Assembly (NCBI RefSeq): GCF_000733935.1
Contig: NZ_JPON01000001.1
Coordinates: 992,001-1,056,000, forward strand
Reading direction: 5' to 3'
Source of the DNA: Methylomarinum vadi
GTDB taxonomy: Bacteria > Pseudomonadota > Gammaproteobacteria > Methylococcales > Methylomonadaceae
Length of the DNA stretch: 64,000 bases
The notes beneath the pieces were generated by a model. That model had not been told where the DNA came from. It did no database searches and saw only the letters and a list, made by a program, of their open reading frames with translations. Of this stretch, positions 10,799 to 38,355 are shown one piece after another; within the stretch, counting starts at the first letter, position 1, and the number at the start of each line of letters is the position of its first letter. A program made the position numbers and the translations under genes.

Positions 10799-11390
10799 AC
10801 TAAACAACCACCCGCTCAAGCGGGTGGGTTCCAATAACGGACTGAAAGTCCGGATACGCGTCGACTAAACGACGCGTCTTAGTCGGGCTCCATCTTGAAA
10901 TTATCGTTTGGATTAGGTTCAAAGTGATGCTCCAAATATTGCTTTATCATCTCATCAGTCATTTGCCCCACTGTGGCGCAAAAATAACCGCGGGCTCAAA
11001 AATGTCGACCCCAATATCGCTTTTTCAAGTGCGGGAACTCTTCGAACAGATAGCTCGAAGTTCGTCCCTTGATTCGCCTCATGATTTCGCTTGGGGCCAT
11101 AGTCGGCGGCGCACTCACCAAAATGTGCACATGATCTTTGCTCACGACACCTTTGATAATCCGTATCTCAAAGGCTTCGCATGTCTGCCGCACCAAGTCT
11201 CTCACTCGTTCGGCTATTTCATCCTTCAGCACTTTATAACGATACTTCGTAACCCAAACAAAATGATACTCAATTTGGTAAACCGTATGGCTGCCGTATC
11301 TATAGTCCATCGCCACCTCCTTGGGCAAATTATCGCAGCTAAAGCTGACCGGCTAAAGCCGGTGGTTTAAACCTTATGATGGATAATTAA
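10799..11390 (-). mobile_element. IS200-like element, copy 1 (592 bp, transposase truncated)
   Basis: Copy 1 of a five-copy family, inserted between the leuA/cimA-like gene and leuB. The shared unit runs from ACTAAACAACC to GGATAATTAA. The end distal to the transposase start has hairpin CCACCCGC-TCAA-GCGGGTGG (10808-10827), then GGACT-GAA-AGTCC (10839-10851) and ACGCGTCG-ACTAAA-CGACGCGT (10856-10877). The other end has AGC-TAAA-GCT and ACCGGC-TAAA-GCCGGT (11337-11363). Subterminal hairpins without terminal inverted repeats or target duplication are typical of IS200/IS605. The pre-insertion sequence would be AATTAA. Confidence 0.92.
10879..11310 (-). pseudogene. tnpA: IS200-like transposase TnpA, nonsense-truncated (copy 1)
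   Basis: A Y1-type HUH transposase gene. The ATG at 11310 is preceded by the strong ribosome site AAGGAGGT, which decides the start; longer in-frame readings from a TTG translate this ribosome site as codons. The HUH pair HVH (His60, His62) is present, but codon 105, Trp in the intact copy, is TGA here (changed base at 10996). The product would stop at 104 residues and lack the catalytic Tyr125. The rest of the frame to 10879 is intact. Confidence 0.88.
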
Positions 11391-11396
11391 TGGTTG

Positions 11397-12956
11397 TTAC
11401 TTTGCTTTTCCAATCGTTTGACCACACTCCATTTCATGGAGCTGGATATTGATCAGTTTTAAAGTGGCCAGAATACCGGCAAAAACCTGATTGACATGGA
11501 CGCCACGGGTTTTACGCAATTCATTGCCGCAATCCCAAGTAATCACGCTCTCGGTCAATGCGCTGGCATGACCGCCTTTGGGAATGCGGATTTCGAAATC
11601 GGCCAGCTTGGGCAGCGTGAAATCATATTTGGCCATTACCTTGCTGATGGCATCGATGAAGGCATCGAAGCCCCCGCTTCCGGCTCCGGTGGCCTGGTGT
11701 TTGTCCCCTCGCACCTTGACGCGCAGACTCACAGTGGATTGTAAATCCAAACCGCTATTGATCGAACACGCCAATAATTTGATATGTTGGTAGCTTTTGC
11801 TTTCTAAGACATCGGCAATGATGAACGGTAGATCGTCGGTAGTGATGGTCTGCTTGGAATCCCCGAGACTGACGATACGGGCCAGCACTTTTTTCTGGTC
11901 TTCCTCGGAAAGATTTACTTCGAGTTGTTCGAGATTCTTTTTCAGGGAAGCCTTGCCGCTCATTTTTCCCAAGGCGTAGCTGCGGGTTCGCGAAAAACGT
12001 TCCGGCCCCAAACGGGTTTTATACAACCCTCCTTTCTGATCGCCATCGGCATGAATACCGGCAGTTTGGGTAAAAACATCGGCTCCGACGATCGGGGCAT
12101 TGTCGGCGATACGCTTACCGGAAAAATTTTCCACCATGTTGCTGATGCGAACCAAATGGCTTTCGTCAATGGCAAGTTGCATACCCATTTTATCACGCAA
12201 CACTACGGCAACTTCAGCCAGCGAGGCATTGCCCGCACGCTCGCCCAGGCAATTGATGGTGCAATGGACCGCCCTGACGCCGGCACGAACGGCCGCCATG
12301 ACGTTGGCGGTGGCCAAACCGTAATCGTTATGGGGATGAAAATCGAACTGAAGTTCCGGGTAACGCTGACACATGTCGTTCAGGCTGGCAAAGACCTCGT
12401 CCGGCGCCATAACCCCCAAGGTGTCCGGCAACATGAAATGGCTGACCCGGCTGTGCTGCAGTCTATCCACCAAACCATACACATAATCACGGCTATCCTG
12501 ATAACCATTCGACCAGTCTTCCAAGTAAATATTAACTTTCAGGCCTTGTTCATGGGCATAAGTAATCGTTTGCAACACATCGGCGCTATGCTGTTCCAAA
12601 GTTTTACCCAACTGTTCACGGCAATGTTTCTCGCTGCCTTTGGCAAGCAGATTGATAACTTTGCCGCCGGTGGATTTGATCCAATCGACACTACGCGTGT
12701 GATCGACAAAACCGAGCACCTCAACCCGATCTGCGAAGCCCTCCTGTCGAGCCCATTGATTGATCTCGCTGACAGCTTCCCTTTCCCCTTCGGAGACCCG
12801 CGCCGAGGCCACTTCGATACGGTCGACGCGTAAAAACTGTAATAACGCCTTGGCGATGCTGACTTTTTCCGTCGGTGTAAAGGCGACGCCCTGTGTTTGC
12901 TCACCATCACGCAAAGTGGTATCCATCAGCTGGATATGTCTTGAATCAAGCGACAT
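11397..12956 (-). CDS. 2-isopropylmalate / (R)-citramalate synthase
   Basis: A 519-residue DRE-TIM metallolyase: LMDTTLRDGEQTQGVAFTP holds the catalytic Arg-Asp, FHPHNDYGLA the metal-binding histidines, and a C-terminal regulatory domain follows (GSGGFDAFIDAISKVM, then EIRIPKGGHASALTE). The blocks RVDRIEVASARVSEGE, NIYLEDWSNG and DVFTQTAGIHADGD resemble, from memory, the Leptospira-type citramalate synthase (CimA) more than E. coli LeuA. CimA condenses pyruvate with acetyl-CoA for isoleucine; LeuA uses 2-oxoisovalerate for leucine. The specificity is not settled by sequence reading alone. It is upstream of leuB, with an IS between. Confidence 0.85.
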   Translation of the reverse strand: MSLDSRHIQLMDTTLRDGEQTQGVAFTPTEKVSIAKALLQFLRVDRIEVASARVSEGEREAVSEINQWARQEGFADRVEVLGFVDHTRSVDWIKSTGGKVINLLAKGSEKHCREQLGKTLEQHSADVLQTITYAHEQGLKVNIYLEDWSNGYQDSRDYVYGLVDRLQHSRVSHFMLPDTLGVMAPDEVFASLNDMCQRYPELQFDFHPHNDYGLATANVMAAVRAGVRAVHCTINCLGERAGNASLAEVAVVLRDKMGMQLAIDESHLVRISNMVENFSGKRIADNAPIVGADVFTQTAGIHADGDQKGGLYKTRLGPERFSRTRSYALGKMSGKASLKKNLEQLEVNLSEEDQKKVLARIVSLGDSKQTITTDDLPFIIADVLESKSYQHIKLLACSINSGLDLQSTVSLRVKVRGDKHQATGAGSGGFDAFIDAISKVMAKYDFTLPKLADFEIRIPKGGHASALTESVITWDCGNELRKTRGVHVNQVFAGILATLKLINIQLHEMECGQTIGKAK

Positions 12957-13160
12957 GATTTCTGTCTAATTTATTAAATAATTGGTTTCAGTACCCTTCA
13001 TGGCTGTCCGGAAATCAATTACGAACGAGGCAGCAATAAAGATGACTAAATGACACGCAGCTGATCATTTTCCCTAAAACTGGCGCGCCTTGCAATCCTT
13101 GCTTCCATCTCACCTTTTAGAAAAACGACATAAGAGCAACGACAACAAGACTTCAGGATT

Positions 13161-13646
13161 TCATTTGGAATGAAAAACTTGTTGGTAAAATGGGTGCCAG
13201 GCGCAAGCGCTCCGTATCGAAACAGCGGATTGATTCAAATCGAAAACGATGGGCGAGGTTTCATATTTGTTTCCTTGGCCTTTGACTACCACTCGATTTT
13301 TTTTGACGAAGTCCCTAAAGATACTTTCCATGATAGCCCCGGTGGTAATAGTGGTCCTATCACCAACGACATTATTGACATTGATGATATTTATTTCTTC
13401 CTTATCCACCTTATACTGAAAATGCGTGATATTTTTCGCCGAATTTGGTTCTCGCCAGGTGATGGCTAATTGCGGGGTCTCGTTTTCCCTGCAAAAAATT
13501 TTGACTTCCGTTTTAGCGGAAGGCTTAATTGAGGCAATCCCCACTTTGTTATCCATCAAGGGATCTTTTGTAATAGCCGAAGTCCAATCCGCTAAAATCT
13601 GAGTATTGCCGGCCATCAACAATACAAACATAATTATTTTTTTCAT
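13161..13646 (-). CDS. Hypothetical secreted protein
   Basis: I do not recognise the family. The 161-residue product begins with a signal peptide, MKKIIMFVLLMAGNTQILA, with likely cleavage after ILA-DW. The mature part is mostly beta-prone, with TEVKIFCRENETPQLAITWREP and two cysteines (FCRE and SACAW) that could form one disulfide. The region is AT-richer than the metabolic genes around it and stands just before a toxin-antitoxin pair and a REP transposase, consistent with accessory DNA. Confidence 0.6.
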   Translation of the reverse strand: MKKIIMFVLLMAGNTQILADWTSAITKDPLMDNKVGIASIKPSAKTEVKIFCRENETPQLAITWREPNSAKNITHFQYKVDKEEINIINVNNVVGDRTTITTGAIMESIFRDFVKKNRVVVKGQGNKYETSPIVFDLNQSAVSIRSACAWHPFYQQVFHSK

Positions 13647-13856
13647 GGATGTTTACCGGAAGCACTGAATTGGACTTTCGATAATAACACAGCCTACCAT
13701 TTGTATTGACTCAAACGAGATCCGACAATTACAAATTAATCTCACTGAAAGCGTGGGATTTGTTCAGTGCCTGGTTTCGGCCACTTTGCGACATTCAAAG
13801 ATTTCAATGTATGACTGCAATAAAACCGAAACCAGTCGCATAACGCCAAAATCACC

Positions 13857-13872
13857 GGCCCGCGTTAGCGGG
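13857..13872. terminator. Small hairpin downstream of higA
   Basis: The sequence CCCGC-GTTA-GCGGG lies about 18 bp past the higA stop codon. The stem is only five pairs and the following T run on the minus strand is weak, so this is a tentative terminator for higBA. Confidence 0.3.
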
Positions 13873-13889
13873 TCAAGCGAATTTTATGG

Positions 13890-14204
13890 TCATGCCATTT
13901 TTTGTACGTGCTTATAATCTTGTATTGACTCAATTTCTTTTTTTTCAATACTTTGCGCTTTATACAGCTCCCACCTCATTTGCAGATTTAGCCAAAAATC
14001 AGGCGAGACTCCAAAAAACTTCCCTAGCCGCAAAGCTGTACTTGGGGTAACCCCTCGTTTTTGATTAACTAACTCATTGATGCGTTGATAGGGAACATGA
14101 ATCGCCTCTGCAAGTTCACGCTGCGTAATTTCCATAGGAACAAGAAATTCTTCACGGAGCATTTCTCCAGGATGAGTTGGTTCTCTATGGGTTGGGACTC
14201 TCAT
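13890..14204 (-). CDS. higA: HigA-family antitoxin
   Basis: A 104-residue antitoxin with an Xre-type helix-turn-helix: HPGEMLREEFLVPMEITQRELAEAIHVPYQRINELVNQKRGVTPSTALRLGKFFG shape across residues 11-65. HigA binds and neutralises HigB and represses the operon. The HPGE(M/I)L start and the SPDFWLNLQ block near residue 70 are family hallmarks. It follows the toxin gene by 11 bp, the toxin-first order typical of higBA. Confidence 0.93.
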   Translation of the reverse strand: MRVPTHREPTHPGEMLREEFLVPMEITQRELAEAIHVPYQRINELVNQKRGVTPSTALRLGKFFGVSPDFWLNLQMRWELYKAQSIEKKEIESIQDYKHVQKMA

Positions 14205-14215
14205 AATATTTGCCT

Positions 14216-14509
14216 CTAGTGATAATCAGTTATTTCTACATTTGCTGGGCCTAATTCTTCCCATGAAAAACAAATTCTATATTGTTCATTGATACGAATA
14301 CTGTACGAACCAGCTCTGTTTCCCAAAAGACTTTCTAACCGGTTCCCAGGAGGAACTTTCAATTCTTCTAGGGATTGAACAGAGTCTAATTGATCTAATT
14401 TCCTTGCTGCAATTCGCCATAGAGTTTGTGGGCAAGCCTTTCGTGCCAATTTGGAATTGACCCCATTAAATATATCTTCTGTCGCCTTATCATTGAACGA
14501 TACAATCAT
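14216..14509 (-). CDS. higB: HigB-family mRNA-interferase toxin
   Basis: A 97-residue toxin of the RelE/HigB superfamily, a ribosome-dependent mRNA endonuclease. It reads ARKACPQTLWRIAARKLDQLDSVQSLEELKVPPGNRLESL then GSYSIRINEQYRICFSWEELGPANVEITDYH; the conserved YSIRINEQYRICF strand and C-terminal DYH fit the family. Expression is expected to be autoregulated by the HigA pair. Located in an accessory stretch beside a REP transposase. Confidence 0.93.
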   Translation of the reverse strand: MIVSFNDKATEDIFNGVNSKLARKACPQTLWRIAARKLDQLDSVQSLEELKVPPGNRLESLLGNRAGSYSIRINEQYRICFSWEELGPANVEITDYH

Positions 14510-14655
14510 GGGATCATGATAGCACGGCTTCCATGATATTCAAGGTATCTCCACAAATCACCGGCAAATTGGAGCAACGAGAAGCTTGTGGCATTTGCCA
14601 CAAACGAACGTCGCGGAAATTTGTCCGCGTGAATTTGCATTGTTAGGTGAGGGCC

Positions 14656-14690
14656 GTAGGCTGGGTTGAACAACGAGAAACCCAGCATTA
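14656..14690. repeat. REP-like palindrome (left of RAYT)
   Basis: GTAGGCTGGGTT and AACCCAGC form an 8-bp stem (GCTGGGTT/AACCCAGC) around a ten-base loop. It lies immediately downstream of the tyrosine transposase gene, in the relation known for REP elements and their RAYT genes. Confidence 0.8.
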
Positions 14691-14693
14691 CAA

Positions 14694-15224
14694 TTATTCC
14701 CAATCCTGTTCGATTAAGTCCGGTGCGGCAGCCCAATCTTCACTGTAAATCCCTAATTTAACCCAACGATGAAAAGATGAAAAAGGCCATTCCTTCACTT
14801 TCGTTACAAGCCCATGTTTTACTGGATTGTAATGAATATATTCAAAATGCCGCTGAAAATCTCTATCATCGCGGATTTGGTGCTCCCAATAACGGCGTTG
14901 CCATAGGCCGCGTTCTTTGTTACGCAATCGACTGCCGGATACTCTTTCGCCTTTCTCGATAGACCTGGAAAAATGCGATTTGATCAAACGCCAGCGCATC
15001 GGATAATCGTCGTCGCCTTCTGGTAATCGCCAAATACAATGTAAATGTTCCGGTAATATTGCTATGGCTTCGATGACCAGGGGATGGCGTTGTTTCGTAT
15101 AGCGAAATGCTTGGCGTAAATCGTCGACACGCCGAACCAGCAAGTCATTTTGTTTTCGTTGAGCAAGATTGACGGTAAAGAAATAAACGCCGCCTTTTGC
15201 ATGGCTACGAATGTAAGTGCGCAT
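14694..15224 (-). CDS. REP-associated tyrosine transposase (RAYT)
   Basis: A 176-residue single-domain Y1 HUH transposase of the RAYT (TnpA-REP) group. The HUH motif appears as EHLHCIWRLPEGDDDYPMRW near residue 60, the block RGLWQRRYWEHQIRDDRDFQRHFEYIHYNPVKHGLV contains the conserved tyrosine, and KEWPFSSFHRWV is a RAYT hallmark. RAYTs nick REP hairpins and are thought to spread them. REP palindromes sit directly on both sides, and a further copy of the same core lies near 50.67 kb. Confidence 0.92.
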   Translation of the reverse strand: MRTYIRSHAKGGVYFFTVNLAQRKQNDLLVRRVDDLRQAFRYTKQRHPLVIEAIAILPEHLHCIWRLPEGDDDYPMRWRLIKSHFSRSIEKGERVSGSRLRNKERGLWQRRYWEHQIRDDRDFQRHFEYIHYNPVKHGLVTKVKEWPFSSFHRWVKLGIYSEDWAAAPDLIEQDWE

Positions 15225-15240
15225 AATTTATTCATTCATA

Positions 15241-15273
15241 AGCTGGGTTTCATTATCATTCAACCCAGCCTAC
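15241..15273. repeat. REP-like palindrome (right of RAYT)
   Basis: GCTGGGTT at 15242-15249 pairs with AACCCAGC, followed by CTAC; it is the inverse-orientation partner of the repeat at 14656. Together they bracket the RAYT gene. Confidence 0.8.
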
Positions 15274-15465
15274 TTCTGCAAACCCAACATCGGCTTATTA
15301 TCAATTTGCGGACATTAACAAAACTAAAGAGATCGTCGCTTATGGGTCGATTACTCCCTTTCAAAGCACAATCATTGCGATTATATTTTAAAAGATGTTA
15401 GACCGAGTTTGAGTTTCTAATGTCATTCAAGGATTAATCTATTGATCTCATATAGAAAGCCACAG

Positions 15466-15915
15466 TCAAACGATATCTTCTCCCGACACCCTTATTTGCG
15501 CCAGCGAAGCAACCGCCCCGCCGCCACTAATATCGGGGATAATCATCAGCTCAAGCAGCCTAACGGACCCTATATCGAGCCGATGCACTTCGGTTTCCCG
15601 GGTTGATCCCCGTGGACTGAAATTCCATTGCTGACGGACAGCTTCGCGAAAGTTGTCGTCGTTATCCGGCGACCAGCGTAAAACATATTCCTGTGTTCGT
15701 TCGAGTGCATTTTCGACGAACACTAACTTGACTTTGCCTAACTTTATCGGGCGGGCGAATGTTAGCCGAATCTTCTGCCGCCCCGGCCCTGAAGCGCGCC
15801 ACCCCGAGGTAAAGATTGGTAACAAGGCAAAGTCGATAGGCCGAGTGGCATTTGCCGAACTCACGTCCACATCGGCCAGTTCAATTACATTCAACCATTC
15901 ATCATCGGTTTCCAT
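15466..15915 (-). CDS. Hypothetical protein, discoidin-like beta fold possible
   Basis: Family not recognised. The chosen ATG (METDDEWLNVIELADVDV) follows a good ribosome site (AAGAGG, five bases between); a longer reading from a TTG seven codons upstream lacks one. The 149-residue protein is strand-rich: SGWRASGPGRQKIRLTFARPIKLGKVKLVFVE, RTQEYVLRWSPDNDD, FSPRGSTRETEVHRLDIGSVRLLELMIIPD. That pattern resembles F5/8-type (discoidin) carbohydrate-binding domains, as inference only. No signal peptide is seen. Confidence 0.6.
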   Translation of the reverse strand: METDDEWLNVIELADVDVSSANATRPIDFALLPIFTSGWRASGPGRQKIRLTFARPIKLGKVKLVFVENALERTQEYVLRWSPDNDDNFREAVRQQWNFSPRGSTRETEVHRLDIGSVRLLELMIIPDISGGGAVASLAQIRVSGEDIV

Positions 15916-15988
15916 TTTTTCCTCTTGATAGTGCAAATTTTGTCATCAACCCTTTTTTTGCCAGCCTGAACTAACGGATCGCTGCTCG

Positions 15989-18583
15989 TTAAACCCCAAG
16001 CTTCCCCTTCAATTTCTCGAAAGCACTCTCCAAGGAAGTATCCATGGCCACGACCCGGTTCATGGCGATAATCACCCTCGTCAATTGCGGAAAACCGGTG
16101 CTGCGTGTCGCCTTAGTATAAACAGGCTGAATATAAAGCAATCTTCCGTCCACGGGCACGATAATCATTCGGCCTTTAATAACGCTAGTCCCCCGTTGTT
16201 GCCAGAGAGTCAGTTGGCGGGAAATCTCCGGGTCCTGGTTGATCAAACCGCTTATCTGTGCCGGCCCTTCAACCTGCTGGTCTACCGGGAAACGATAGTT
16301 GACAATGTCGGCGGAATAGGCTGACTGGCAATCGGCGGCTTTTATGCAGCCGGCCATGGTAATCATGCCGAGATTGGCGCGACCGATTTGGGCCATCGGG
16401 GCAACCAACAAAAACCGGTATAAATCCGGATTGGCCTTGCTTACGCCACCTCCAGGAATCAGCGTCAGAAAATACGGCAACATTTTTTTGCCGTCGAGTT
16501 GCGGAAAAGTCATTGCCTCGCTTTGTTGATAATACACATCCGGATTTGTCTGGTGATAGCGAGCATACACCGCCATTTGTAACGCGAACAATCGACTCGG
16601 ATAACTCAGATGATTGATAAAGGATTGCGGAATTTCCGCCGCATTTTTAAATAGCATCGGATAAATATTGCGGTATGTCGTCGCGATGGGATCATTCGGA
16701 TCGACCAAGTAAAAATCTACATCTCCGTTGTAGGCATCGACAATAATTTTGACCGAGTTACGAAGATAGTTCACGGGCTTGACTTCCATCCCGTCATCGA
16801 GCGGAAAATCGTAACTAGCGACAACAGGAAAACGATCGGAGGTGGTATAGGCATCGACTATCCAATAAATTTTGTTGTTTATCACGACCGGATAGGGATT
16901 GGGATCAAGCGTTAAAAACGGCGCCAATGTATTGACCCGTTCGATGATATTACGCCTGAACAACATCCGGCTATCTTCGGTCATGTTAGTCGTGAACAGC
17001 AAGTCGAAATCCTGGAAATACGCGGACAGGACGATTCTGCGCAATAAAGAAGAAATCGTCACGCCGCCTTCCACCATCAAATCGTTACGCAGTCGAAAAG
17101 TTGCGCCTTTAGGGTGCGGCGGACGTGCGTCATTGGGAGTGATGGCATAAGCGTATTTCGCCATCCCATAGAAAATTTGTGGTTGCTTGATCTTCAGTTG
17201 CTCATAATCGGTCAGATTATTTAAATCGCGGATCAACCATTGCATCGGCTGATCGGCCTGCTGCAAAGACGGCGTCATGACCAGACCGTAACCATGCGTA
17301 TAGATAAAATGTAGATTGTTCCAAGTCTTGGCCGATCTTGGTAACCGGTAAAAATTCAACTCACGGGCGGCGACATTGACCTGAACATTAACCCCTTCAA
17401 GCCGATATCGATCAACCGCGACATCCTTAAATGCGAAAAAAGGCCTGATGGCCTGCATCTGGTCGTAACCGGCCAACAAAAGCTCATGGTCCCATAATGG
17501 AATGTTTTTTAATACGTCTTTGATGGCTTGGCTATTTAATGGAGCTGATTCGCTTTTTAATGGGTACTCGACAATGTCAACCTGATTCAGGCCGAATCCT
17601 TGTAAAGTCGCTTCGATGTTATAAGCCATATTTTTACGTTCCGCCGTGACCGGATTGGCGGCAACATAAAATCGATCGATCAAGGAGGGAACCCAATGGG
17701 TCTGCTTAAAGGCTACCATGGCAAAGTAAATCAACGCGCTCGCGCACATCCATTTCAAACCGCGCCGGGTATAGAGATATACGACCGCCGAAAAAGCGGC
17801 GACGATGAAAAACAGAAAATTCAGCCAGATCAACGGTAGTTGAAAATTCATTTCCACAAAACCGGGTCCGAAATAGACGGGCTGGTGGCGGTCGACATAA
17901 AGAATCTCGTAACGCTCCAGGTTAATGGACCAGGCTAAAATCGCGACAATCACGCCAATCAATAACGCCAGATGAATTTTGGCGCCGCCTGGCAACAACT
18001 CCCTATCGGTTTGCTGACGATTCGCTTGCCAATAGCAAGCGGCAATGGTGGCAAACAATAACGAAAAAACCACCAGCATTTCATTTTGCACCAATTTGAT
18101 CAACGGAAATGACAATAAGTAAAAGCTGACATCCTGACCAAAAACCGGGTCTTTCATATTCGAACCCGCATTGAAGAAGAACAACAGAAAATCTTCCCAA
18201 TGCAAATAAATCGGGGTCAAAATCGGCATCGTGAAAATGGCCACGCAAATCATGGCCAACCTGACCGACGGCGTCAATAACAGCACGGCAAGCCTGTTTT
18301 TAAGTCCCGAGCCGCCGAACAAGCCAGCCGGATCGATGCGTAATAGTCGCGGAATCAAGATGAAATTAACAAAGATAAATCCCCCCTGAACCAGCGTAAT
18401 CGCCAAAGCGATAAGATCCCTGTAAACCACGCGCATTAAATAGTACAGCAGCATGCCCAACGACGCATGCCACCAGATTTCCACCAAAAAATGCATGGCG
18501 GCGAAACCCAATAAACCGCTAATCAGTAAAAACCCACTTCCCAGGGCAATAAAACGTGTAGAAGCATTCAATTTGGCTTGCAT
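15989..18583 (-). CDS. UPF0182 family large membrane protein
   Basis: An 864-residue protein of the UPF0182 (COG1615) family of unknown function. About seven hydrophobic helices occupy the first 300 residues, starting FIALGSGFLLISGLLGFAAM; a large soluble domain follows, containing the family blocks ILYVDRHQPVYFGPGF, NNLHFIYTHGYGLVMTP and VDFYLVDPNDPIATTYRNIYP. The C-terminal part ends in a helical tail (ALES-FEKLKGKLGV). It is transcribed alone; no neighbour suggests a role. Confidence 0.9.
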   Translation of the reverse strand: MQAKLNASTRFIALGSGFLLISGLLGFAAMHFLVEIWWHASLGMLLYYLMRVVYRDLIALAITLVQGGFIFVNFILIPRLLRIDPAGLFGGSGLKNRLAVLLLTPSVRLAMICVAIFTMPILTPIYLHWEDFLLFFFNAGSNMKDPVFGQDVSFYLLSFPLIKLVQNEMLVVFSLLFATIAACYWQANRQQTDRELLPGGAKIHLALLIGVIVAILAWSINLERYEILYVDRHQPVYFGPGFVEMNFQLPLIWLNFLFFIVAAFSAVVYLYTRRGLKWMCASALIYFAMVAFKQTHWVPSLIDRFYVAANPVTAERKNMAYNIEATLQGFGLNQVDIVEYPLKSESAPLNSQAIKDVLKNIPLWDHELLLAGYDQMQAIRPFFAFKDVAVDRYRLEGVNVQVNVAARELNFYRLPRSAKTWNNLHFIYTHGYGLVMTPSLQQADQPMQWLIRDLNNLTDYEQLKIKQPQIFYGMAKYAYAITPNDARPPHPKGATFRLRNDLMVEGGVTISSLLRRIVLSAYFQDFDLLFTTNMTEDSRMLFRRNIIERVNTLAPFLTLDPNPYPVVINNKIYWIVDAYTTSDRFPVVASYDFPLDDGMEVKPVNYLRNSVKIIVDAYNGDVDFYLVDPNDPIATTYRNIYPMLFKNAAEIPQSFINHLSYPSRLFALQMAVYARYHQTNPDVYYQQSEAMTFPQLDGKKMLPYFLTLIPGGGVSKANPDLYRFLLVAPMAQIGRANLGMITMAGCIKAADCQSAYSADIVNYRFPVDQQVEGPAQISGLINQDPEISRQLTLWQQRGTSVIKGRMIIVPVDGRLLYIQPVYTKATRSTGFPQLTRVIIAMNRVVAMDTSLESAFEKLKGKLGV

Positions 18584-19432: not shown

Positions 19433-19440
19433 TTGACTTT

Positions 19441-19899: not shown

Positions 19900-20452
19900 A
19901 TGTCGCAACGAGTTCCCCCTCCGGAAACCTTTGTATCCTCCCCATCAGAAAACAACCACGCCGTTCGTGAAAACCTGATTCAGAGCGTATCCAAATATGC
20001 GCAAGCCGACTATCGCAAGGCGTATTGGCAAGTCGCGAACACTTTTTTACCATACCTCGGCCTCTGGGCTCTGATGGTTCTAACCGTGGTTTATTATCTT
20101 CCGGTTTGGACGACCCTGCTATTGGCGGTGCCGGCTTCCGGTTTTTTGGTTCGGATTTTTATTTTGTTCCATGATTGTTGTCACGGTGCATTTTTCCCTT
20201 CGCGGCGCGCTAACCGAATTCTAGGCTATGTGGCCGGCATTCTGACCTTCACGCCGTTCGAGGATTGGCAGCGCACGCACACGATCCACCATGCTGCGTC
20301 AGGCAATCTGGATCGTCGCGGTACCGGTGACATCTGGACCTTGACGGTCGATGAATATCTGTCGGCATCGAGACTAAACAACCACCCGCTCAAGCGGGTG
20401 GGTTCCAATAACGGACTGAAAGTCCGGATACGCGTCGACTAAACGACGCGTC

Positions 20453-20884
20453 TTAGTCGGGCTCCATCTTGAAATTATCGTTTGGATTAGGTTCAAAGTG
20501 ATGCTCCAAATATTGCTTTATCATCTCATCAGTCATTTGCCCCACTGTGGCGCAAAAATAACCGCGGGCCCAAAAATGTCGACCCCAATATCGCTTTTTC
20601 AAGTGCGGGAACTCTTCGAACAGATAGCTCGAAGTTCGTCCCTTGATTCGCCTCATGATTTCGCTTGGGGCCATAGTCGGCGGCGCACTCACCAAAATGT
20701 GCACATGATCTTTGCTCACGACACCTTTGATAATCCGTATCTCAAAGGCTTCGCATGTCTGCCGCACCAAGTCTCTCACTCGTTCGGCTATTTCATCCTT
20801 CAGCACTTTATAACGATACTTCGTAACCCAAACAAAATGATACTCAATTTGGTAAACCGTATGGCTGCCGTATCTATAGTCCAT
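20453..20884 (-). CDS. tnpA: IS200-family Y1 HUH transposase TnpA, intact
   Basis: A 143-residue transposase that cuts and joins single-stranded DNA. The ATG at 20884 follows AAGGAGGT with a five-base spacer. Residues from MDYRYGSHTVYQIEYHFVWVTKYRYKVL to HVHILVSAPP give the HUH motif (His60, His62); MIKQYLEHHF carries the catalytic tyrosine (Tyr125); RYWGRHFWARGYFCATVG precedes it. Length and motif spacing are those of IS200/IS605 TnpA. No tnpB is present. It may serve the four truncated copies in trans. Confidence 0.95.
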   Translation of the reverse strand: MDYRYGSHTVYQIEYHFVWVTKYRYKVLKDEIAERVRDLVRQTCEAFEIRIIKGVVSKDHVHILVSAPPTMAPSEIMRRIKGRTSSYLFEEFPHLKKRYWGRHFWARGYFCATVGQMTDEMIKQYLEHHFEPNPNDNFKMEPD

Positions 20885-20906
20885 CGCCACCTCCTTGGGC
20901 AAATTA

Positions 20907-21020
20907 TCGCAGCTAAAGCTGACCGGCTAAAGCCGGTGGTTTAAACCTTATGATGGATAATTATCGCAGCTAAAGCTGACCGGCTAAAGCCGGTGGTTTA
21001 AACCTTATGATGGATAATTA
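20907..21020. repeat. Tandem duplication of the IS end in copy 2 (2 x 57 bp)
   Basis: Two perfect 57-bp units lie head to tail, each beginning TCGCAGCTAAAGCTGACC and ending GGATAATTA. Each contains the ACCGGC-TAAA-GCCGGT hairpin. Both are preceded by AATTA, so slippage between these short repeats or an aberrant end-joining event could have created them. Confidence 0.9.
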
Positions 21021-22349: not shown

Positions 22350-23278
22350 CCCCAGTCGAATATTTCTTCTTATTTCCAGGTTGCGGACGGCCGCTAACAG
22401 CGGAGAGATTCTTCGACAATAGCGCCGTCCCGTCAGTTCTATTATTTTACCTTTAGCGGGATTCAATCCCCATTATTTGAGATTCCTTATGTCATTTTTT
22501 TCTCTCGGCCTGTCCGAGCCCCTGTTGCGCGCGATCAGCGATTCAGGCTATCACTCGCCGACGCCGATACAACAACAGGCGATACCATCGATTTTATCGG
22601 GTCGAGACCTGCTTGCCGCCGCACAAACCGGGACAGGCAAGACCGCCGGCTTTACCTTGCCCATCCTTGAGCGCCTGGCCGCCAAGCCTATCAGCGGCAA
22701 GCGCCCCATCAGGGCACTGATTATAACGCCGACCCGCGAACTGGCCGCGCAAGTGGCCGAATCGGTCAACAAATACGGGGCGCATCAGCAACCGCGACTC
22801 AAATCCGATGTCGTGTTCGGCGGCGTCAAGATCAACCCGCAAATGCTGCGGTTACGCGGCGGCGTCGATATCTTAACGGCTACGCCGGGGCGGTTACTCG
22901 ATCTGGTCGAGCAGAATGCGGTCAAATTGAATCAGGTCGAGATCCTGGTTCTGGATGAAGCCGACCGCATGTTGGATATGGGATTCATCAGAGACATCAA
23001 CAAGGTATTGGCGTTATTGCCGAAAAAACGGCAAAACTTGCTGTTCTCGGCGACCTTTTCCGCCGACATCCGCCGATTGACCCAAAACCTATTGATCAAG
23101 CCTGTAAAAATCGAAGTGGCGGTTGAAAACACCGCCGCCGAGACCATCGAGCAGATCGCCTACCAGGTAGATAAAACGTCTAAAACTGCTTTCTTGACGC
23201 ATTTGATCAAAAGCAACGACTGGCAACAGGTATTGGTTTTTACCAGCACCAAACACGGCGCCAACCGCCTGACGAAGA

Positions 23279-23870
23279 ACTAAACAACCACCCGCTCAAG
23301 CGGGTGGGTTCCAATAACGGACTGAAAGTCCGGATACGCGTCGACTAAACGACGCGTCTTAGTCGGGCTCCATCTTGAAATTATCGTTTGGATTAGGTTC
23401 AAAGTGATGCTCCAAATATTGCTTTATCATCTCATCAGTCATTTGCCCCACTGTGGCGCAAAAATAACCGCGGGCTCAAAAATGTCGACCCCAATATCGC
23501 TTTTTCAAGTGCGGGAACTCTTCGAACAGATAGCTCGAAGTTCGTCCCTTGATTCGCCTCATGATTTCGCTTGGGGCCATAGTCGGCGGCGCACTCACCA
23601 AAATGTGCACATGATCTTTGCTCACGACACCTTTGATAATCCGTATCTCAAAGGCTTCGCATGTCTGCCGCACCAAGTCTCTCACTCGTTCGGCTATTTC
23701 ATCCTTCAGCACTTTATAACGATACTTCGTAACCCAAACAAAATGATACTCAATTTGGTAAACCGTATGGCTGCCGTATCTATAGTCCATCGCCACCTCC
23801 TTGGGCAAATTATCGCAGCTAAAGCTGACCGGCTAAAGCCGGTGGTTTAAACCTTATGATGGATAATTAA
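23279..23870 (-). mobile_element. IS200-like element, copy 3 (592 bp, transposase truncated)
   Basis: It interrupts the helicase between its two RecA-like domains. By eye it is identical to copies 1, 4 and 5. It forms a direct repeat with copy 4, only 319 bp away, so recombination between them would delete the middle helicase piece. Confidence 0.92.
23359..23790 (-). pseudogene. tnpA: IS200-like transposase TnpA, nonsense-truncated (copy 3)
   Basis: The reading frame matches the intact copy but codon 105 is TGA (changed base at 23476). The catalytic tyrosine lies past the stop. Ribosome site and HUH motif are intact. Confidence 0.88.
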
Positions 23871-24189
23871 ATGCCGCGCACATTAGCGCCAAGGCGATAC
23901 ACGGCAATAAGAGCCAGGGCGCACGAACCGCCGCCTTGGCCGAATTCAAGACCGGCGCGATTCAAGTACTGGTCGCCACCGATGTGGCGGCACGCGGCAT
24001 CGATATTGCCAAGCTACCGCATGTAGTGAATTATGAACTGCCGCGATCCTCTCCCGATTACGTGCACCGCATCGGCCGTACCGGCAGGGCGGGACGTGAA
24101 GGGCTTGCCGTATCGCTGATTTCCCAGGAGGAAAATAACGCGCTACGTCAGGTCGAGAAACTGATCGGCGCGAAAATTACCCGCGGTCG

Positions 24190-24781
24190 ACTAAACAACC
24201 ACCCGCTCAAGCGGGTGGGTTCCAATAACGGACTGAAAGTCCGGATACGCGTCGACTAAACGACGCGTCTTAGTCGGGCTCCATCTTGAAATTATCGTTT
24301 GGATTAGGTTCAAAGTGATGCTCCAAATATTGCTTTATCATCTCATCAGTCATTTGCCCCACTGTGGCGCAAAAATAACCGCGGGCTCAAAAATGTCGAC
24401 CCCAATATCGCTTTTTCAAGTGCGGGAACTCTTCGAACAGATAGCTCGAAGTTCGTCCCTTGATTCGCCTCATGATTTCGCTTGGGGCCATAGTCGGCGG
24501 CGCACTCACCAAAATGTGCACATGATCTTTGCTCACGACACCTTTGATAATCCGTATCTCAAAGGCTTCGCATGTCTGCCGCACCAAGTCTCTCACTCGT
24601 TCGGCTATTTCATCCTTCAGCACTTTATAACGATACTTCGTAACCCAAACAAAATGATACTCAATTTGGTAAACCGTATGGCTGCCGTATCTATAGTCCA
24701 TCGCCACCTCCTTGGGCAAATTATCGCAGCTAAAGCTGACCGGCTAAAGCCGGTGGTTTAAACCTTATGATGGATAATTAA
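24190..24781 (-). mobile_element. IS200-like element, copy 4 (592 bp, transposase truncated)
   Basis: It is inserted eleven codons before the helicase stop (restored tail RIKDFEAIKQAC after TRG). If it had been the only insertion, the helicase could have stayed active with an altered tail; this suggests copy 4 may have preceded copy 3, as inference. Same orientation and target hexamer as the others. Confidence 0.92.
24270..24701 (-). pseudogene. tnpA: IS200-like transposase TnpA, nonsense-truncated (copy 4)
   Basis: As in copies 1, 3 and 5, codon 105 is TGA (changed base at 24387), removing Tyr125. All other visible motifs are intact. Confidence 0.88.
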
Positions 24782-29187: not shown

Positions 29188-29194
29188 TAAATTA

Positions 29195-30851: not shown

Positions 30852-30853
30852 TA

Positions 30854-31759: not shown

Positions 31760-31803
31760 ATTCGCTAAAATCGAACGTTTTGAATTGCACCCTCTATCCA
31801 ATC

Positions 31804-32475
31804 GTGAAAAATATATTCAGCTCTCTGTTAATTCTTTTTTTGTGCAGCGCAGCGGCAAACGCAACCACGGTTTATGTGACCGATGACATTAAATTCACCC
31901 TAAGAAGTACGGAAAGCAATCGCAGTCGGATTCTTAAAATGCTGCCGAGCGGGACGCCTTTGACCGTTCTCGAAGTCGATGAGTCATCCGGCTATTCCAA
32001 GGTCCGTACCCGAAGCGGCGTAGAAGGCTATATTCTGACGAGACACACTTCTCCCAAACCGATCAGCCGCTGGTATCTGGAACGCGCCAACAAGAAGCTG
32101 GATGAGTTGCAGCAGGAAAACAACCGCCTTAAACAGGAACTGCAAGAAATAAAAGGAAATAACAACCAGACTCTGACCACCAATCAGGAACTCAGCCAGG
32201 AACGCGACCAATTAAGCAGCGAACTTAACGAATTAAAACAGACCGCCGCCAACGCGCTGCAACTGAAGCATCAACGCGATCAACTGCAGGAGCGGGTGAT
32301 TTCAGTGGAAAGGGAACTACAACAAGTTAAGCGAGAAAACCAGACCCTGGAGGACAGCACCAACCAGGACTGGTTCTTGTACGGTGGTGTGCTATCGTTG
32401 TTCGGCGTCATCCTTGGTTTTATCCTGCCTAAGTTAAGCTGGCGCCGCAAAACCAGCAATTGGGATACCTTTTAA
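31804..32475 (+). CDS. SH3-domain protein, YgiM-like (TIGR04211 type)
   Basis: A membrane-anchored protein with an N-terminal signal segment ([19 protein letters not shown]), a bacterial SH3 domain ([35 protein letters not shown]...GYILTRH), a coiled coil of about 90 residues ([23 protein letters not shown] onwards), and a C-terminal transmembrane helix ([20 protein letters not shown]). I prefer the GTG at 31804, which puts the signal peptide at the N-terminus; the frame is open 17 codons further upstream. The function is unknown, probably cell-wall related. Confidence 0.82.
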
Positions 32476-32507
32476 TAACATTAATTCAGAACTCAGGAAA
32501 CGCTGAC

Positions 32508-34205
32508 ATGGCAAATTCAGGAGACAAAAGCACTCGCACCTATTCCTCCCAAGTTGTTGACGGCATGGAACGCGCGCCCAGCCGGGCGATGCTGCATGCA
32601 GTCGGTTTCAGCAACGAAGACTTCAGCAAACCGCAAGTCGGTATCGCGTCGACCTGGAGCATGGTGACACCGTGTAACATGCATATCAACAAACTGGCCG
32701 AGGACGCCGCCAAGGGAGTCGACGGTTCCGGCGGCAAGGCCGTTATTTTCAACACCATCACGATCTCCGACGGCATTTCAATGGGCACCGAAGGCATGAA
32801 ATACTCGTTGGTCTCGCGCGAAGTCATCGCCGATTCCATCGAAACCGTGACCGGTTGCCAGGGATTCGACGGCGTCGTCGCGATCGGCGGCTGCGACAAA
32901 AACATGCCGGGCTGCATGATTGCCCTATCCCGTCTGAACCGACCCGCGATCTTCGTCTACGGCGGCACAATTCTACCCGGCTGCCATAACGAAAAAAAAC
33001 TCGATGTCGTCTCCGTATTCGAAGCGGTCGGCGCCCGCGCCAACAACAAAATCGACGACGCCGAGCTGCAGGCGATCGAAGCCAAGGCGATTCCCGGCGC
33101 CGGCTCCTGCGGAGGTATGTACACGGCCAATACGATGGCATCGGCGATCGAGGCGTTGGGCATGAGCCTGCCGAACAGTTCGGCGCAGGCCGCAGTTTCC
33201 GAAGACAAGCGCCTGGATTGCGAACGTGCCGGCGCGGCTGTTTTGGAATTGCTGAAAAAAGACATCAAGCCGCGCGACATCATGACCAAAGAAGCGTTTG
33301 AAAACGCCATAACCGTCGTGATCGCCCTGGGCGGCTCGACCAACGCCGTATTGCACCTGTTGGCGATGGCTAATGCAACCGGCATCGATTTGAGTCTGGA
33401 CGATTTCACCCGCATTGGCGCGCGCGTACCGATGTTGGCCGACCTGAAACCCAGCGGTCGCTACCAAATGGCGGAGCTGATTGAGATCGGCGGCATTCAA
33501 CCATTGATGAAAACGCTACTTGATAACGGCCTACTGCATGGCGACTGCCTGACCGTGACAGGAAAGACACTGGCGGAAAACCTGGCCGATGTTCAACCCT
33601 ATCCGGATGGCCAGGATATGATCCGCCCGTTGGACAATCCGATCAAAAAAGACAGCCATCTGGCCGTGCTTTACGGCAACCTGGCCACTGAAGGGGCCGT
33701 AGCCAAAATCACCGGTAAGGAAGGGCTGGTTTTTACCGGCAACGCCAAGGTGTTTGATGCCGAGGAACAAGCTTTACAGAGCATCCTCAATGGCGACATC
33801 GTCAAAGGCGATGTCATCGTGATTCGTTACGAAGGACCGAAAGGCGGACCGGGTATGCGGGAAATGTTGTCCCCGACTTCCGCCATCATGGGTAAGGGAT
33901 TGGGCAAAGACGTCGCCCTGATTACCGACGGCCGTTTCTCCGGCGGTACCCACGGCTTCGTGGTCGGCCACATTACGCCAGAGGCCCAGGTCGGCGGTAC
34001 GTTAGCCATCGTTCGAGACGGCGATCAAATCACCATCGACGCGGAAAACAAACAATTGACCTTACATGTTAACGAACATGAAATTGCCCGTCGCCTGGAA
34101 AAATGGCAGGCGCCTGAACCGCGCTATAAACGCGGTGTGCTGGCAAAATTCGCTAAATTGGTTAATTCCGCCTCCCAAGGCGCGGTAACCGACAACTTCG
34201 ACTAA
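32508..34205 (+). CDS. ilvD: Dihydroxy-acid dehydratase
   Basis: A 565-residue iron-sulfur dehydratase for the third shared step of isoleucine and valine synthesis. Cluster cysteines are in [23 protein letters not shown] and [30 protein letters not shown] and [18 protein letters not shown] are also present. The ATG at 32508 has an AGGAAA ribosome site; an upstream 16-codon extension is not family-like. It lies within the arginine gene group. Confidence 0.96.
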
Positions 34206-34247
34206 TCCGCCTTCCGCCGGCCCGTCCTGGGCCGGCTCGAGTCGCCG

Positions 34248-35582
34248 ATGAACACGCTTACTTGCAATGACCCGCTTGCCCAGGCGGCTTTCGTCAACTG
34301 GTTCAGAAATTCCTCGCCCTATATTCATGCCCACCGTAACCGTACTTTTGTCGTTTTCTTCAGCGGCGAAGCGGTAAACGGCAATTTTGCCGGCTTAATC
34401 CATGATTTTGCCCTGCTGAAAAGCCTGGGTATTCGCCTAGTCCTGGTCCATGGCATCAGACCGCAGATCGATCAACGCCTGCAACAGCATGGCATCACGG
34501 CACGCTTTCACAATAATCTGCGCATTACCGATGACCAGATCCTGCCCTATGTCAAGGAGGCTGCCGGACTGGTCAGGGTCGAAACCGAAGCGCTGTTATC
34601 GATGGGACTGGCCAATTCACCGATGGCCGGCGCAAAAATCAAGGTTGCCTCGGGAAACTTCGTCACCGCCAAACCCTTAGGCGTCATCGATGGCATCGAC
34701 TACTGCCATACCGGCCAGGTAAGACGCATAGACCATCAAGCCATTCATCAACAACTCGATCAGAACAATGTGGTATTGATCTCTCCGCTCGGTTACTCGC
34801 CCAGCGGCGAGGTCTTTAATTTGGGCTCGGAATTGGTCGCCACCGAAGTGGCAATTGCCTTGCAAGCGGAAAAATTGATTTTACTGACCGAGCTGGATTG
34901 TGTGTCGCCGAACAGCAATACTCTAGTACGGCAAATGACAACCGTAGAGGCACAAGATTTTTTAAACCAGTACCCGAATCAATCCAGCGCGACGATTCGC
35001 TCATTGAACGCCGCCATCGAGAGCTGCCAACGAGGCGTACAGCGGGTACACCTGCTCAACCACCACATAGACGGTTGTTTGCTGTTGGAGTTGTTCAGCC
35101 GCGACGGCATCGGTACTTTGATCAGCGCCACCCCTTTCGAGGAGATTCGTTCGGCGAATCTGGAAGACATAGGCGGCATTCTGGAACTCATCAAGCCGCT
35201 GGAACAGCAGGGGCAACTGGTCAAACGCTCACGGGAAAAGCTGGAAATGGAAATCAGCGATTACATCGTTATCGAACGGGACGGCCTCATTATCGGCTGC
35301 ACCGCGCTGCATTGCATGGATGGCGCCCAAGCCGGAGAGATTGCCTGCCTGGCCGTCCACCAGGATTATCGCAGGGCCTCGCGCGGCAGCCATTTATTGG
35401 AATTTTTAATCGAAAAAGCCAAGGAAACGGGTATCAAGCGTTTATTCGCGCTCTCGTCACAAACCATGCATTGGTTTATCGAACACGGTTTTATCGAAAG
35501 CGATGTCGCAACCCTACCGGAGCGCATGAAAAACTTCTATAACTATAATAGAAATTCCAAAGTGTTTTACAAGGATATCTAA
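34248..35582 (+). CDS. argA: N-acetylglutamate synthase
   Basis: A 444-residue bifunctional-looking protein: an amino-acid-kinase-like domain (residues 30-285, with LVLVHGIRPQIDQRL) that usually binds arginine for feedback control, and a C-terminal GNAT domain (residues 295-440, with CLAVHQDYRRASRGSHLLEFLI for acetyl-CoA). It makes N-acetylglutamate, the first step of arginine synthesis. It precedes cpdA by five bases. Confidence 0.94.
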   Translation: MNTLTCNDPLAQAAFVNWFRNSSPYIHAHRNRTFVVFFSGEAVNGNFAGLIHDFALLKSLGIRLVLVHGIRPQIDQRLQQHGITARFHNNLRITDDQILPYVKEAAGLVRVETEALLSMGLANSPMAGAKIKVASGNFVTAKPLGVIDGIDYCHTGQVRRIDHQAIHQQLDQNNVVLISPLGYSPSGEVFNLGSELVATEVAIALQAEKLILLTELDCVSPNSNTLVRQMTTVEAQDFLNQYPNQSSATIRSLNAAIESCQRGVQRVHLLNHHIDGCLLLELFSRDGIGTLISATPFEEIRSANLEDIGGILELIKPLEQQGQLVKRSREKLEMEISDYIVIERDGLIIGCTALHCMDGAQAGEIACLAVHQDYRRASRGSHLLEFLIEKAKETGIKRLFALSSQTMHWFIEHGFIESDVATLPERMKNFYNYNRNSKVFYKDI

Positions 35583-35587
35583 TCGTC

Positions 35588-36373
35588 GTGAACAAAATCC
35601 TGCAAATCACCGATCCGCATATTTTGCCTGAAGCAGACGGCACGTTATTGGGCATCGAAACGGAAAAATATTTCAGACAAGCCTTGGACCATGCTCATCA
35701 ACGGTTTAGTGGTTTCGATCTCATATTGCTGACGGGCGACCTGGCCCAAGACCCTTGTCCCGACAGTTACCTCCGGGTCCGGCAAATACTCAATCACTAT
35801 GAGACCCCGAGCATTTGCTTGCCCGGCAACCATGACGATTTTGCACAGATGCAGGCGATTTTCAACCAGGGTTTGGTCAGTTGCCAACGCTACCATCAGT
35901 TGAAAAACTGGCAAATCATCTGCCTGAACAGCCAAAAACCGGGGTTTCCCGGCGGATTACTGAATCAGGGCGAGTTGAACTTCTTGAGCGAACAATTGCA
36001 CCGCCACTCCGATTTGTTCACCCTGATCGCGCTGCACCATCATTGCATAGCCAGCGGCAGTAGCTGGATGGACACGATGATGATTGAAAACAGCGAGGAA
36101 TTTTTTGCCTGCGTCGCGAACCATCCGCAAATCAAGGCGATCATTTGCGGCCACGTGCACCAAGTACTGGAAAAGGAGCGGCATGGCATCCAATTGTTAG
36201 GTACGCCGGCCAGTTGTTTCCAGTTCAAACCCGGTTGCCGGCAATTTGCCTTGGACGATAAACCGCCGGGTTATCGCGTTATCGAACTCGACAATGACGG
36301 AAGTTTCCAAACCCAGGTGGCTTGGCTGCCCATCCATTTGGATGAGCTCGATTTCAATTCGGCCGGTTACTGA
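35588..36373 (+). CDS. cpdA: 3',5'-cyclic AMP phosphodiesterase CpdA
   Basis: A 261-residue metallophosphoesterase: [31 protein letters not shown] and CGHVHQV are the five metal-binding motifs, arranged as in the class III cAMP phosphodiesterases. It hydrolyses cAMP to AMP. It follows argA closely and its end overlaps the convergent rppH by seven bases. Confidence 0.9.
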
Positions 36374-36891
36374 TCCTTCACGATCGACAAATAGCCATCC
36401 GCCCTTACCGGCACCGAGTCGGAGATCAGCATTGCGCCCAGCTCGATCAAGGCCTTGCGGTAAACCTTTCGTTTGAAGTACACGACATCCTTCAAAGGAT
36501 GCCAATATTCCACCCACTTCCAATTGTCGAATTCCTGCTTATGACCGCAATCGAAACGGACCTTGGATTCGTCGGAAATCATGCGCAAGATAAACCAGAT
36601 TTGCTTCTGGCCTATACATAATGGCATCGAATTCTTTCTGACATATCGATCGGGTAATTTATATCTGAGCCAATATCGGGTCCGACCTAGCAGCTGGACA
36701 TCTTCGGGCAACAAGCCCGTTTCTTCCCACAATTCACGATACATCGCTGTTTCCGGGTCTTCATTACCATCGATACCACCCTGCGGAAATTGCCATGAGT
36801 TTGCACCTTTTCGTTTCGCCCAAAAAACACGACCATCGTCATTGCAAAGGATAATCCCGACATTGGGCCGGTATCCTTTTGAGTCAATCAT
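36367..36891 (-). CDS. rppH: RNA pyrophosphohydrolase
   Basis: A 174-residue Nudix hydrolase that removes pyrophosphate from mRNA 5' ends and starts decay. The Nudix box is [45 protein letters not shown] and [10 protein letters not shown] are RppH-specific. A hairpin capable of covering the region before its start codon lies just upstream (see 36891-36928). Confidence 0.95.
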
Positions 36892-36928
36892 GTTAAAACC
36901 TGTCTTCGTCAGTCTGACTGTTTTAACA
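36891..36928 (-). promoter_or_regulatory. Inverted repeat over the rppH translation start
   Basis: TGTTAAAAC and GTTTTAACA, nine perfect pairs, flank a 20-base loop that contains the shorter palindrome CAGT-CTG-ACTG. In the rppH mRNA the stem would pair the bases between AGG and the AUG, so it could limit ribosome access. It could also be a protein operator. No experiment is implied by the sequence. Confidence 0.4.
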
Positions 36929-37112
36929 CCGTAGCGAATGGTAAAATTAAAACAGATCAGTGATTTAAATTAATGGGGTAATTGTTCCACAAATCGGCAA
37001 TTGACGCCATACTGAGATGCTTTTTTATCGCACTTCACATTTCAGGATTTTCCTTCTTGCGAAAAAACCGACCTGAAGTGCTCAACTTTACTTATTGACA
37101 ACAGGACAATCC

Positions 37113-37802
37113 GTGAGTTTAGCCATTTTTGATTTGGATAACACCTTGATAGCCGACGATAGCGATTATTTATGGGGGCAGTTTCTGGTCGACCAGGGCA
37201 TCGTGGACAGGGAACAATACGAGGCAGCTAATGCGCGTTTTTATGAAGACTACAAAAAGGGCGACCTCGACATCGTTGAATTCCTTAATTTTTCCTTGGC
37301 GCCGTTGGCACAACATGATGCCGAACAATTATTTCAATGGCGCCATAAATTTGTCGAGGAAATCATTCACCCCCTCCTATTGCAACCGGCTATGGATTTA
37401 GTCGACAAGCACCGGCAACGCGGCGATACCTTATTAGTTATTACGGCGACCAATCGCTTTGTCACCGAACCGATCGTCAAACTCTATGGCATCGACAACC
37501 TGTTGGCGACGACCCCGGAATTCGTCGACGGCCGCTATACCGGCAAATTTAACGGCATCCCTTGCTATCAGGAAGGTAAGGTCAAACTGCTGCTGAAATG
37601 GCTGGAAAATTCTACCGAAAGCTTGGAAAACAGCTGGTTCTACAGCGATTCCCATAATGACCTGGCCTTATTGAAGCTGGTGACCCATCCGGTCGCGGTA
37701 GACCCTGATCAGGTCCTGCGCGATTATGCCGAACAGGCCGACTGGCCGATTATCAGTTTGCGAACTAAACAACCACCCGCTCAAGCGGGTGGGTTCCAAT
37801 AA
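37113..37802 (+). CDS. HAD-IB family hydrolase (SerB-like), 3' end altered by IS
   Basis: A haloacid-dehalogenase phosphatase with motif I LAIFDLDNTLI, motif II VITATNRF, and motif III SDSHNDLALL, typical of the HAD-IB SerB-like group. The GTG at 37113 has an AGGA six bases upstream; an in-frame TTG six codons earlier is less likely. Copy 5 of the IS is inserted at the stop codon: removing it and keeping AATTAA gives ISLRN-stop, 218 residues. The present frame reads through into the element for about 12 extra residues ([12 protein letters not shown]), probably without loss of the catalytic core. Confidence 0.88.
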   Translation: MSLAIFDLDNTLIADDSDYLWGQFLVDQGIVDREQYEAANARFYEDYKKGDLDIVEFLNFSLAPLAQHDAEQLFQWRHKFVEEIIHPLLLQPAMDLVDKHRQRGDTLLVITATNRFVTEPIVKLYGIDNLLATTPEFVDGRYTGKFNGIPCYQEGKVKLLLKWLENSTESLENSWFYSDSHNDLALLKLVTHPVAVDPDQVLRDYAEQADWPIISLRTKQPPAQAGGFQ

Positions 37803-38355
37803 CGGACTGAAAGTCCGGATACGCGTCGACTAAACGACGCGTCTTAGTCGGGCTCCATCTTGAAATTATCGTTTGGATTAGGTTCAAAGTGATGCTCCAA
37901 ATATTGCTTTATCATCTCATCAGTCATTTGCCCCACTGTGGCGCAAAAATAACCGCGGGCTCAAAAATGTCGACCCCAATATCGCTTTTTCAAGTGCGGG
38001 AACTCTTCGAACAGATAGCTCGAAGTTCGTCCCTTGATTCGCCTCATGATTTCGCTTGGGGCCATAGTCGGCGGCGCACTCACCAAAATGTGCACATGAT
38101 CTTTGCTCACGACACCTTTGATAATCCGTATCTCAAAGGCTTCGCATGTCTGCCGCACCAAGTCTCTCACTCGTTCGGCTATTTCATCCTTCAGCACTTT
38201 ATAACGATACTTCGTAACCCAAACAAAATGATACTCAATTTGGTAAACCGTATGGCTGCCGTATCTATAGTCCATCGCCACCTCCTTGGGCAAATTATCG
38301 CAGCTAAAGCTGACCGGCTAAAGCCGGTGGTTTAAACCTTATGATGGATAATTAA
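37764..38355 (-). mobile_element. IS200-like element, copy 5 (592 bp, transposase truncated)
   Basis: It is inserted in the stop codon of the HAD hydrolase, where the target hexamer AATTAA contains that stop (TAA). It looks identical to copies 1, 3 and 4, and has the same orientation. Confidence 0.92.
37844..38275 (-). pseudogene. tnpA: IS200-like transposase TnpA, nonsense-truncated (copy 5)
   Basis: Codon 105 is TGA (changed base at 37961), as in copies 1, 3 and 4. The frame beyond it remains open to the normal stop. Confidence 0.88.

Follow-up and report, generated by a model that had tools for sequence, protein, structure and literature searches.

Nonsense copies of an IS200-type element outnumber intact copies in Methylomarinum vadi and were very probably mobilised in trans

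Copies of IS200/IS605-family elements that lack a working transposase have been described before; we cite the reports on them from excerpts. The nearest published counterpart among the reports read is Halanaerobium hydrogeniformans, which has 22 copies of an IS605 tnpA, a single intact one and 17 of one degenerate type. Trans-action was proposed, IS200/IS605 elements are described as lacking a strong cis preference, and the reasons offered for the degenerate majority were smaller size, escape from TnpB, or early formation together with selection against functional TnpA (PMC7290912). PATEs are transposase-free IS605 derivatives in Haloquadratum walsbyi, and insertions are described in a strain that has only pseudogenes for IS200-type transposases (PMC3119063). 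In IS608, the catalytic site is built from two monomers, with the tyrosine on helix alphaD (PMC5934647), and replication-linked orientation has been described for IS200/IS605 elements (PMC5371812). Here we analysed a window of 64,000 nt (positions 992001-1056000) of the one-contig genome of Methylomarinum vadi (4,335,162 bases), which holds five copies of one 586-nt IS200-type element with tnpA on the minus strand in each. Most copies of this element in the genome carry the same nonsense codon in tnpA, and we consider it very probable that the nonsense-bearing copies are moved in trans by TnpA from intact copies, with no strong preference of TnpA for the copy that encodes it. The initial annotation of the window had called a helper and passenger relation within one IS family unusual, which does not hold in view of the excerpted Halanaerobium report (PMC7290912) and of the PATEs (PMC3119063). 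A published precedent, in which defective IS200/IS605 copies outnumber an intact one, exists in Halanaerobium, and the present case is a large, clean further example, apparently of parasites living off parasites and not of a new genetic code.

The sole difference within the element among the five window copies is element base 198 (plus strand), which is C in copy 2 and T in copies 1, 3, 4 and 5. Codon 105 of tnpA reads TGG (Trp105) in copy 2 and TGA in the other four, at window positions 10996-10998, 20570-20572 (TGG), 23476-23478, 24387-24389 and 37961-37963. The five-copy alignment confirmed what had first been noted here, namely TGG in the copy inside the desaturase gene, TGA in the remaining copies, and loss of Tyr125 from the latter. 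On the tnpA-sense strand the element starts with ATCCATCATAAGG, immediately 3' of a target pentanucleotide, and ends with GTTGTTTAGT. As tnpA takes up 432 of the 586 nt, there is no room for tnpB, and the element shows the IS200 subgroup trait of tnpA only. The window features are as follows.

10799..11384, minus strand: element copy 1, TGA allele, flanked by leuB-like (Iso_dh) and leuA-like genes
10996..11310, minus strand: tnpA of copy 1, which runs from its ATG to the early TGA (codon 105), 104-aa product
20373..20958, minus strand: element copy 2, TGG allele, which interrupts the gene for a fatty-acid desaturase
20453..20884, minus strand: intact tnpA of copy 2, 143 aa, PF01797 Y1_Tnp
20959..21015, minus strand: extra left-end segment of 57 nt, ending in an internal TAATT, directly upstream of copy 2
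23279..23864, minus strand: element copy 3, TGA allele, which breaks up the gene for a DEAD-box helicase
24190..24775, minus strand: element copy 4, TGA allele, on the 3' side of the Helicase_C domain encoded by the helicase gene that copy 3 interrupts
37764..38349, minus strand: element copy 5, TGA allele, adjoining a HAD-hydrolase gene

In order to obtain genome-wide allele counts, the contig was searched with the exact pattern, which gave 78 TGA and 20 TGG copies, and with Pfam, which gave 18 copies with an uninterrupted full-length tnpA frame. Two TGG copies are damaged, at contig positions 589068 and 1864. The copy at 1864 has no mismatch and 15 internal gaps relative to the consensus, and it lies in contig bases 1-6,000, which match the contig from 4317158 onward (to 4323109) with 6 mismatches and 84 gap bases in 6018 aligned positions. 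The contig ends overlap untrimmed; the contig start is the lower-quality second version and bears uncorrected long-read-like indels. The overlap was checked over 6 kb; should it reach the contig end, about 18 kb must be subtracted to give the true chromosome length. The copies at 1864 and 4319009 are one copy assembled twice, and we therefore counted 97 copies, 78 TGA and 19 TGG, of which 18 are intact; 78 versus 20 as wholly independent copies was rejected. The genome-wide count proposed in the initial annotation thus gave 18 of 97 copies intact and one mutation shared by 78 of the other 79, and an intact majority with independent mutations was not found.

Other variation is scant. Among the 78 TGA copies it amounts to two internal single-nucleotide polymorphisms (SNPs) and one last-base change. 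Extra SNPs are commoner in TGG copies (3/18 versus 2/78, P 0.044), in a post hoc test that omits the two damaged TGG copies and the TGA copy with the last-base change and carries little weight. There are six G:C to A:T changes (element bases 142, 183, 242, 394, 423 and 496), each of them G to A when read on the tnpA-sense strand, a one-sided tally of few changes that leaves out the damaged copy at 589068 (12 mismatches, not sorted). As far as the excerpts go, the Halanaerobium case is likewise one IS200/IS605-family element with a degenerate majority, intact ends and proposed trans-action; its majority form is an internal deletion, whereas the majority and minority here differ by one base, and the counts are 17 degenerate and 1 intact of 22 there versus 78 TGA and 19 TGG for the present element without tnpB (PMC7290912). 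The one-base difference and the lack of tnpB therefore remove two of the three reasons excerpted from that report, size and TnpB escape (PMC7290912).

TNATT or TTAGT stands directly before 78 of 78 TGA and 19 of 19 TGG copies having the exact left-end motif, where the TGG count includes the redundant copy at 1864 and leaves out the damaged one at 589068, which likewise sits after TAATT. Target make-up is much alike for the two alleles. The right flanks are variable and the left target is fixed, which argues for insertion 3' of a short fixed target without target duplication. With six tandem second copies set aside, the left flanks of the TGA copies are distinct in 70 of 72, and those of the remaining 18 TGG copies are all different (589068 not being in this comparison). 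The earlier estimate that the stop-bearing version had transposed at least three times was right as to repeated movement and was a large underestimate, given at least 70 distinct left flanks. Orientation matches the replichore in 72 of 78 TGA and 16 of 19 TGG copies (88/97 overall), with switch points near 0.38 and 2.65 Mb that were fitted to the same data. GC skew, calculated from the window and fetched loci, falls below zero between the 400-600 and 600-800 kb bins and rises above it again between the 2400 and 2600 kb bins, in rough agreement with the fitted points. The shared target, the orientation and the unchanged ends therefore indicate that the TGA copies spread by ordinary single-strand Y1/HUH transposition.

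According to the excerpts, IS608 and ISDra2 share with this element the Y1/HUH transposase, the target kept at the left flank and the replication-linked orientation (PMC5371812, PMC5934647), and the target is TTAC in IS608 versus TNATT here (PMC5934647). Halanaerobium differs in showing no strand bias, with 10 of 22 copies on the leading strand in the excerpted account (PMC7290912). We also looked for a different target or orientation of the TGA copies and saw none (orientation of TGA versus TGG, P 0.37). Nor did they hit genes more or less often (23/65 TGA and 5/17 TGG copies in an open frame, P 0.78), where an open frame of at least 150 codons had to span the site; 16 of 98 copies, tandem or odd, were excluded, and the redundant one was retained.

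The intact tnpA product of 143 aa matches PF01797 (Y1 transposase) with an E-value of 1.7e-46 and has eight relatives with solved structure, including the ISHp608 transposase. The catalytic tyrosine and the HUH positions are present in intact copies (four alignments shown), and Tyr125 is aligned with the C-terminal tyrosine of the solved Y1 transposases, the equivalent of which we take to be the catalytic residue in ISDra2. The stop at codon 105 precedes Tyr125 and hence leaves a 104-residue product without that tyrosine, which still matches PF01797 and covers profile positions 1-89 of 121 only. Judging from the loss of Tyr125, the transposase of the TGA copies would be inactive. On the tnpA-sense strand, a right-end subterminal hairpin is predicted with a z-score of -5.75 (0/200 shuffles equally stable); left-end subterminal hairpins are also predicted, with a z-score of only -1.28 (24/200 shuffles equally stable). 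The element is a single-gene member of the IS200 subgroup of the IS200/IS605 family with a Y1/HUH transposase. IS608 and ISDra2 carry tnpB, unlike the present element.

On sequence grounds, the 78 TGA copies would qualify as non-autonomous elements, with an own transposase probably unable to act, intact ends and repeated movement. The PATEs of the excerpted Haloquadratum report are alike in having IS605-type ends and no working transposase of their own and in being thought mobilised; they have lost the coding core, whereas the TGA copies retain their full length and have a single nonsense codon, and the present genome holds intact copies, whereas the Haloquadratum strain in which movement was noted had pseudogenes only (PMC3119063).

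The initial annotation had offered trans-action by an intact transposase, readthrough of UGA and gene conversion, and the first of these is the best supported. The 18 copies with a good frame are the simplest source of transposase, their TnpA is the best explanation, and we infer the following course. The IS200-subgroup element (586 nt, tnpA only) would have burst recently to 97 chromosomal copies, and very early in the burst one copy would have gained the Trp105 nonsense mutation, losing the helix with the catalytic tyrosine. For TnpA from intact copies (18 today), the unchanged ends of the nonsense copies may then have been about as good a substrate as those of the intact copies. The nonsense copies would have left their sites in single-stranded form and entered new ones 3' of TNATT, for the most part on one strand per replichore, which by GC skew is probably the lagging-strand template. 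The nonsense version would thus be a passenger moved in trans.

We used urn models in order to weigh the excess of TGA copies. In a neutral urn with equal movement, the probability of 78/96 TGA (a total that omits the two damaged copies) is 0.19, 0.034 and 0.006 for mutation at 2, 3 and 4 copies, respectively. If intact copies move 2 times faster, P becomes 0.006 for mutation at 2 copies and 9e-5 at 3, and these low values disfavour a strong cis preference. The following weighs against simple mobilisation in trans. The neutral probability falls so steeply with founder number that neutral trans-action needs a very early mutation. Neighbouring copies share alleles above expectation (P=0.003 for all 98, 0.034 when collapsed to 85); tested in six distance bins, the sharing reached significance in none. 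TGG copies are concentrated around 0.7 Mb (P=0.035). Local hopping or local gene conversion could be the cause of the allele clustering. As to TGA being about four times commoner, either the mutation arose very early or the nonsense copies had an advantage, at the level of the element or through cell selection against functional TnpA, and the data choose neither. It is a tentative suggestion, with the odds against it, that nonsense inserts were favoured as new intact copies raise transposase dose and cell harm and nonsense copies do not; if true, the stop codon gives the element a way of its own to reach a high copy number that can be tolerated. With a single base between them, the two alleles form a large natural experiment on self-preference of an IS200-type transposase, and the counts argue against a strong cis preference. 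In this system, it can be tested directly how transposase-dead passengers spread and whether there is selection against functional transposase.

Among the alternatives to mobilisation in trans, gene conversion fares best, although we regard it as improbable that most copies inserted as TGG and were later turned into TGA. The 97 near-identical repeats could recombine, the alleles show weak local clustering, and what appears to be the same site in another repeat holds different alleles (1178103 TGA, 1772191 TGG). However, the G496A mark of two TGG copies was never found together with TGA, none of the four non-redundant TGG copies that bear other marks has been converted, and an adjacent tandem pair retains both alleles (159745 TGA, 160331 TGG). 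The chance figure for the unconverted marked copies is 0.0011, counting marked TGG copies only; it is selective, as three TGA copies also have private changes, and carries little weight. Conversion of whole elements would erase the marks, but would require a strong bias.

Slightly less probable again is that, through UGA readthrough or reassignment, TGA copies produce enough full-length TnpA for their own movement. The frame past the stop is intact in the TGA copies and readthrough would alter one residue only; nevertheless, intact copies make it needless. The gene for release factor 2, prfB, is present (516.8 bits, cut-off 370), and the search for tRNA-Sec gave 8 hits, none over the gathering score. 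Four of these eight sub-threshold hits are the genes of tRNA-Ser, -Gly, -Tyr and -Trp, the last with anticodon CCA; the other four were not looked at, and a suppressor tRNA elsewhere in the genome is compatible with the data. Selenocysteine or a missing release factor 2 was thus rejected, other suppressor tRNAs not having been searched for. UGA looks like a normal stop in this genome, and the earlier view that genome-wide recoding does not apply stands. A programmed or conserved stop was also rejected: of 28 relative loci searched, 18 cover position 105 and 15 of these 18 read Trp in the best covering hit. The three loci without Trp are frame-broken, reading Leu or stop (L135, two hits), Leu or Trp (L149, two hits) and Lys (L136, a poor hit).

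We give very little credence to a split transposase, in which the 104-aa piece and a reinitiated C-terminal helix peptide rebuild an active dimer. An in-frame GTG and ATG follow shortly after the stop, and the tyrosine helix of IS608 is swapped between monomers in the excerpted structure report (PMC5934647), but such an arrangement is needless while intact copies exist. A sequencing or assembly artefact at the GGGCCC/GGGCTC site is barely credible, since the error-rich untrimmed contig end shows mostly indels, the doubly assembled copy has the same allele in both overlap versions, and GGGCCC occurs 10 times in the window.

Surveys of other genomes and collections were also made. Four of five same-genus genomes had no DNA match and one had a 33-base match (in two of the five, 9 of 15 or 18 candidates were scored). 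The exact element pattern had no hits in IMG/VR, and a plasmid collection gave 18 records, all 60-80% identical. At E 1e-30, 13 of 274 genomes of the class matched, and at E 1e-20, 51 of 121 genomes of the family, own genome included in both. Neither survey gave another genome with more than one full-length stop-bearing copy among the matches listed; the stops were not compared individually, and one that is listed may be the normal frame end.

The tandem copies set aside above form six pairs with an exact right-end/left-end junction and a 586-base period, and an imperfect third member lies at 3599314. Their contig positions are as follows.

159745/160331, 1086395/1086981, 1092777/1093363, 3599910/3600496, 3618820/3619406, 3790026/3790612: six head-to-tail pairs, the first holding both alleles

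Such pairs could arise if the retained target were used again or if a copy inserted at the TTAGT of the right end. Copy 2 bears a tandem duplication, 57 nt long, of its left end (window 20959-21015), which is absent from the initial annotation; an extra 57-nt left end likewise precedes the copies at contig positions 1146676 and 3561982. The extra left ends stop at an internal TAATT, which is the element's own target sequence, and this suggests that TnpA used that internal site. A palindromic AATTAATT site in copies of another repeat holds four element copies (97427, 1178103, 1772191 and 2482025), in both orientations and with both alleles, sameness of site being judged by eye. An antisense open frame is present in the element. 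In the DEAD-box helicase region (window 22477-24775), copy 3 breaks the gene and copy 4 lies just after the Helicase_C domain. The top-listed desaturase relatives are methanotroph records (Methylomicrobium, Methylicorpusculum, Methylobacter), which makes a methane oxidiser of this group the likely host. The insertion of copy 2 is clean: the desaturase pieces are 6 nt apart in three of four uninterrupted relatives and 9 nt in the fourth.

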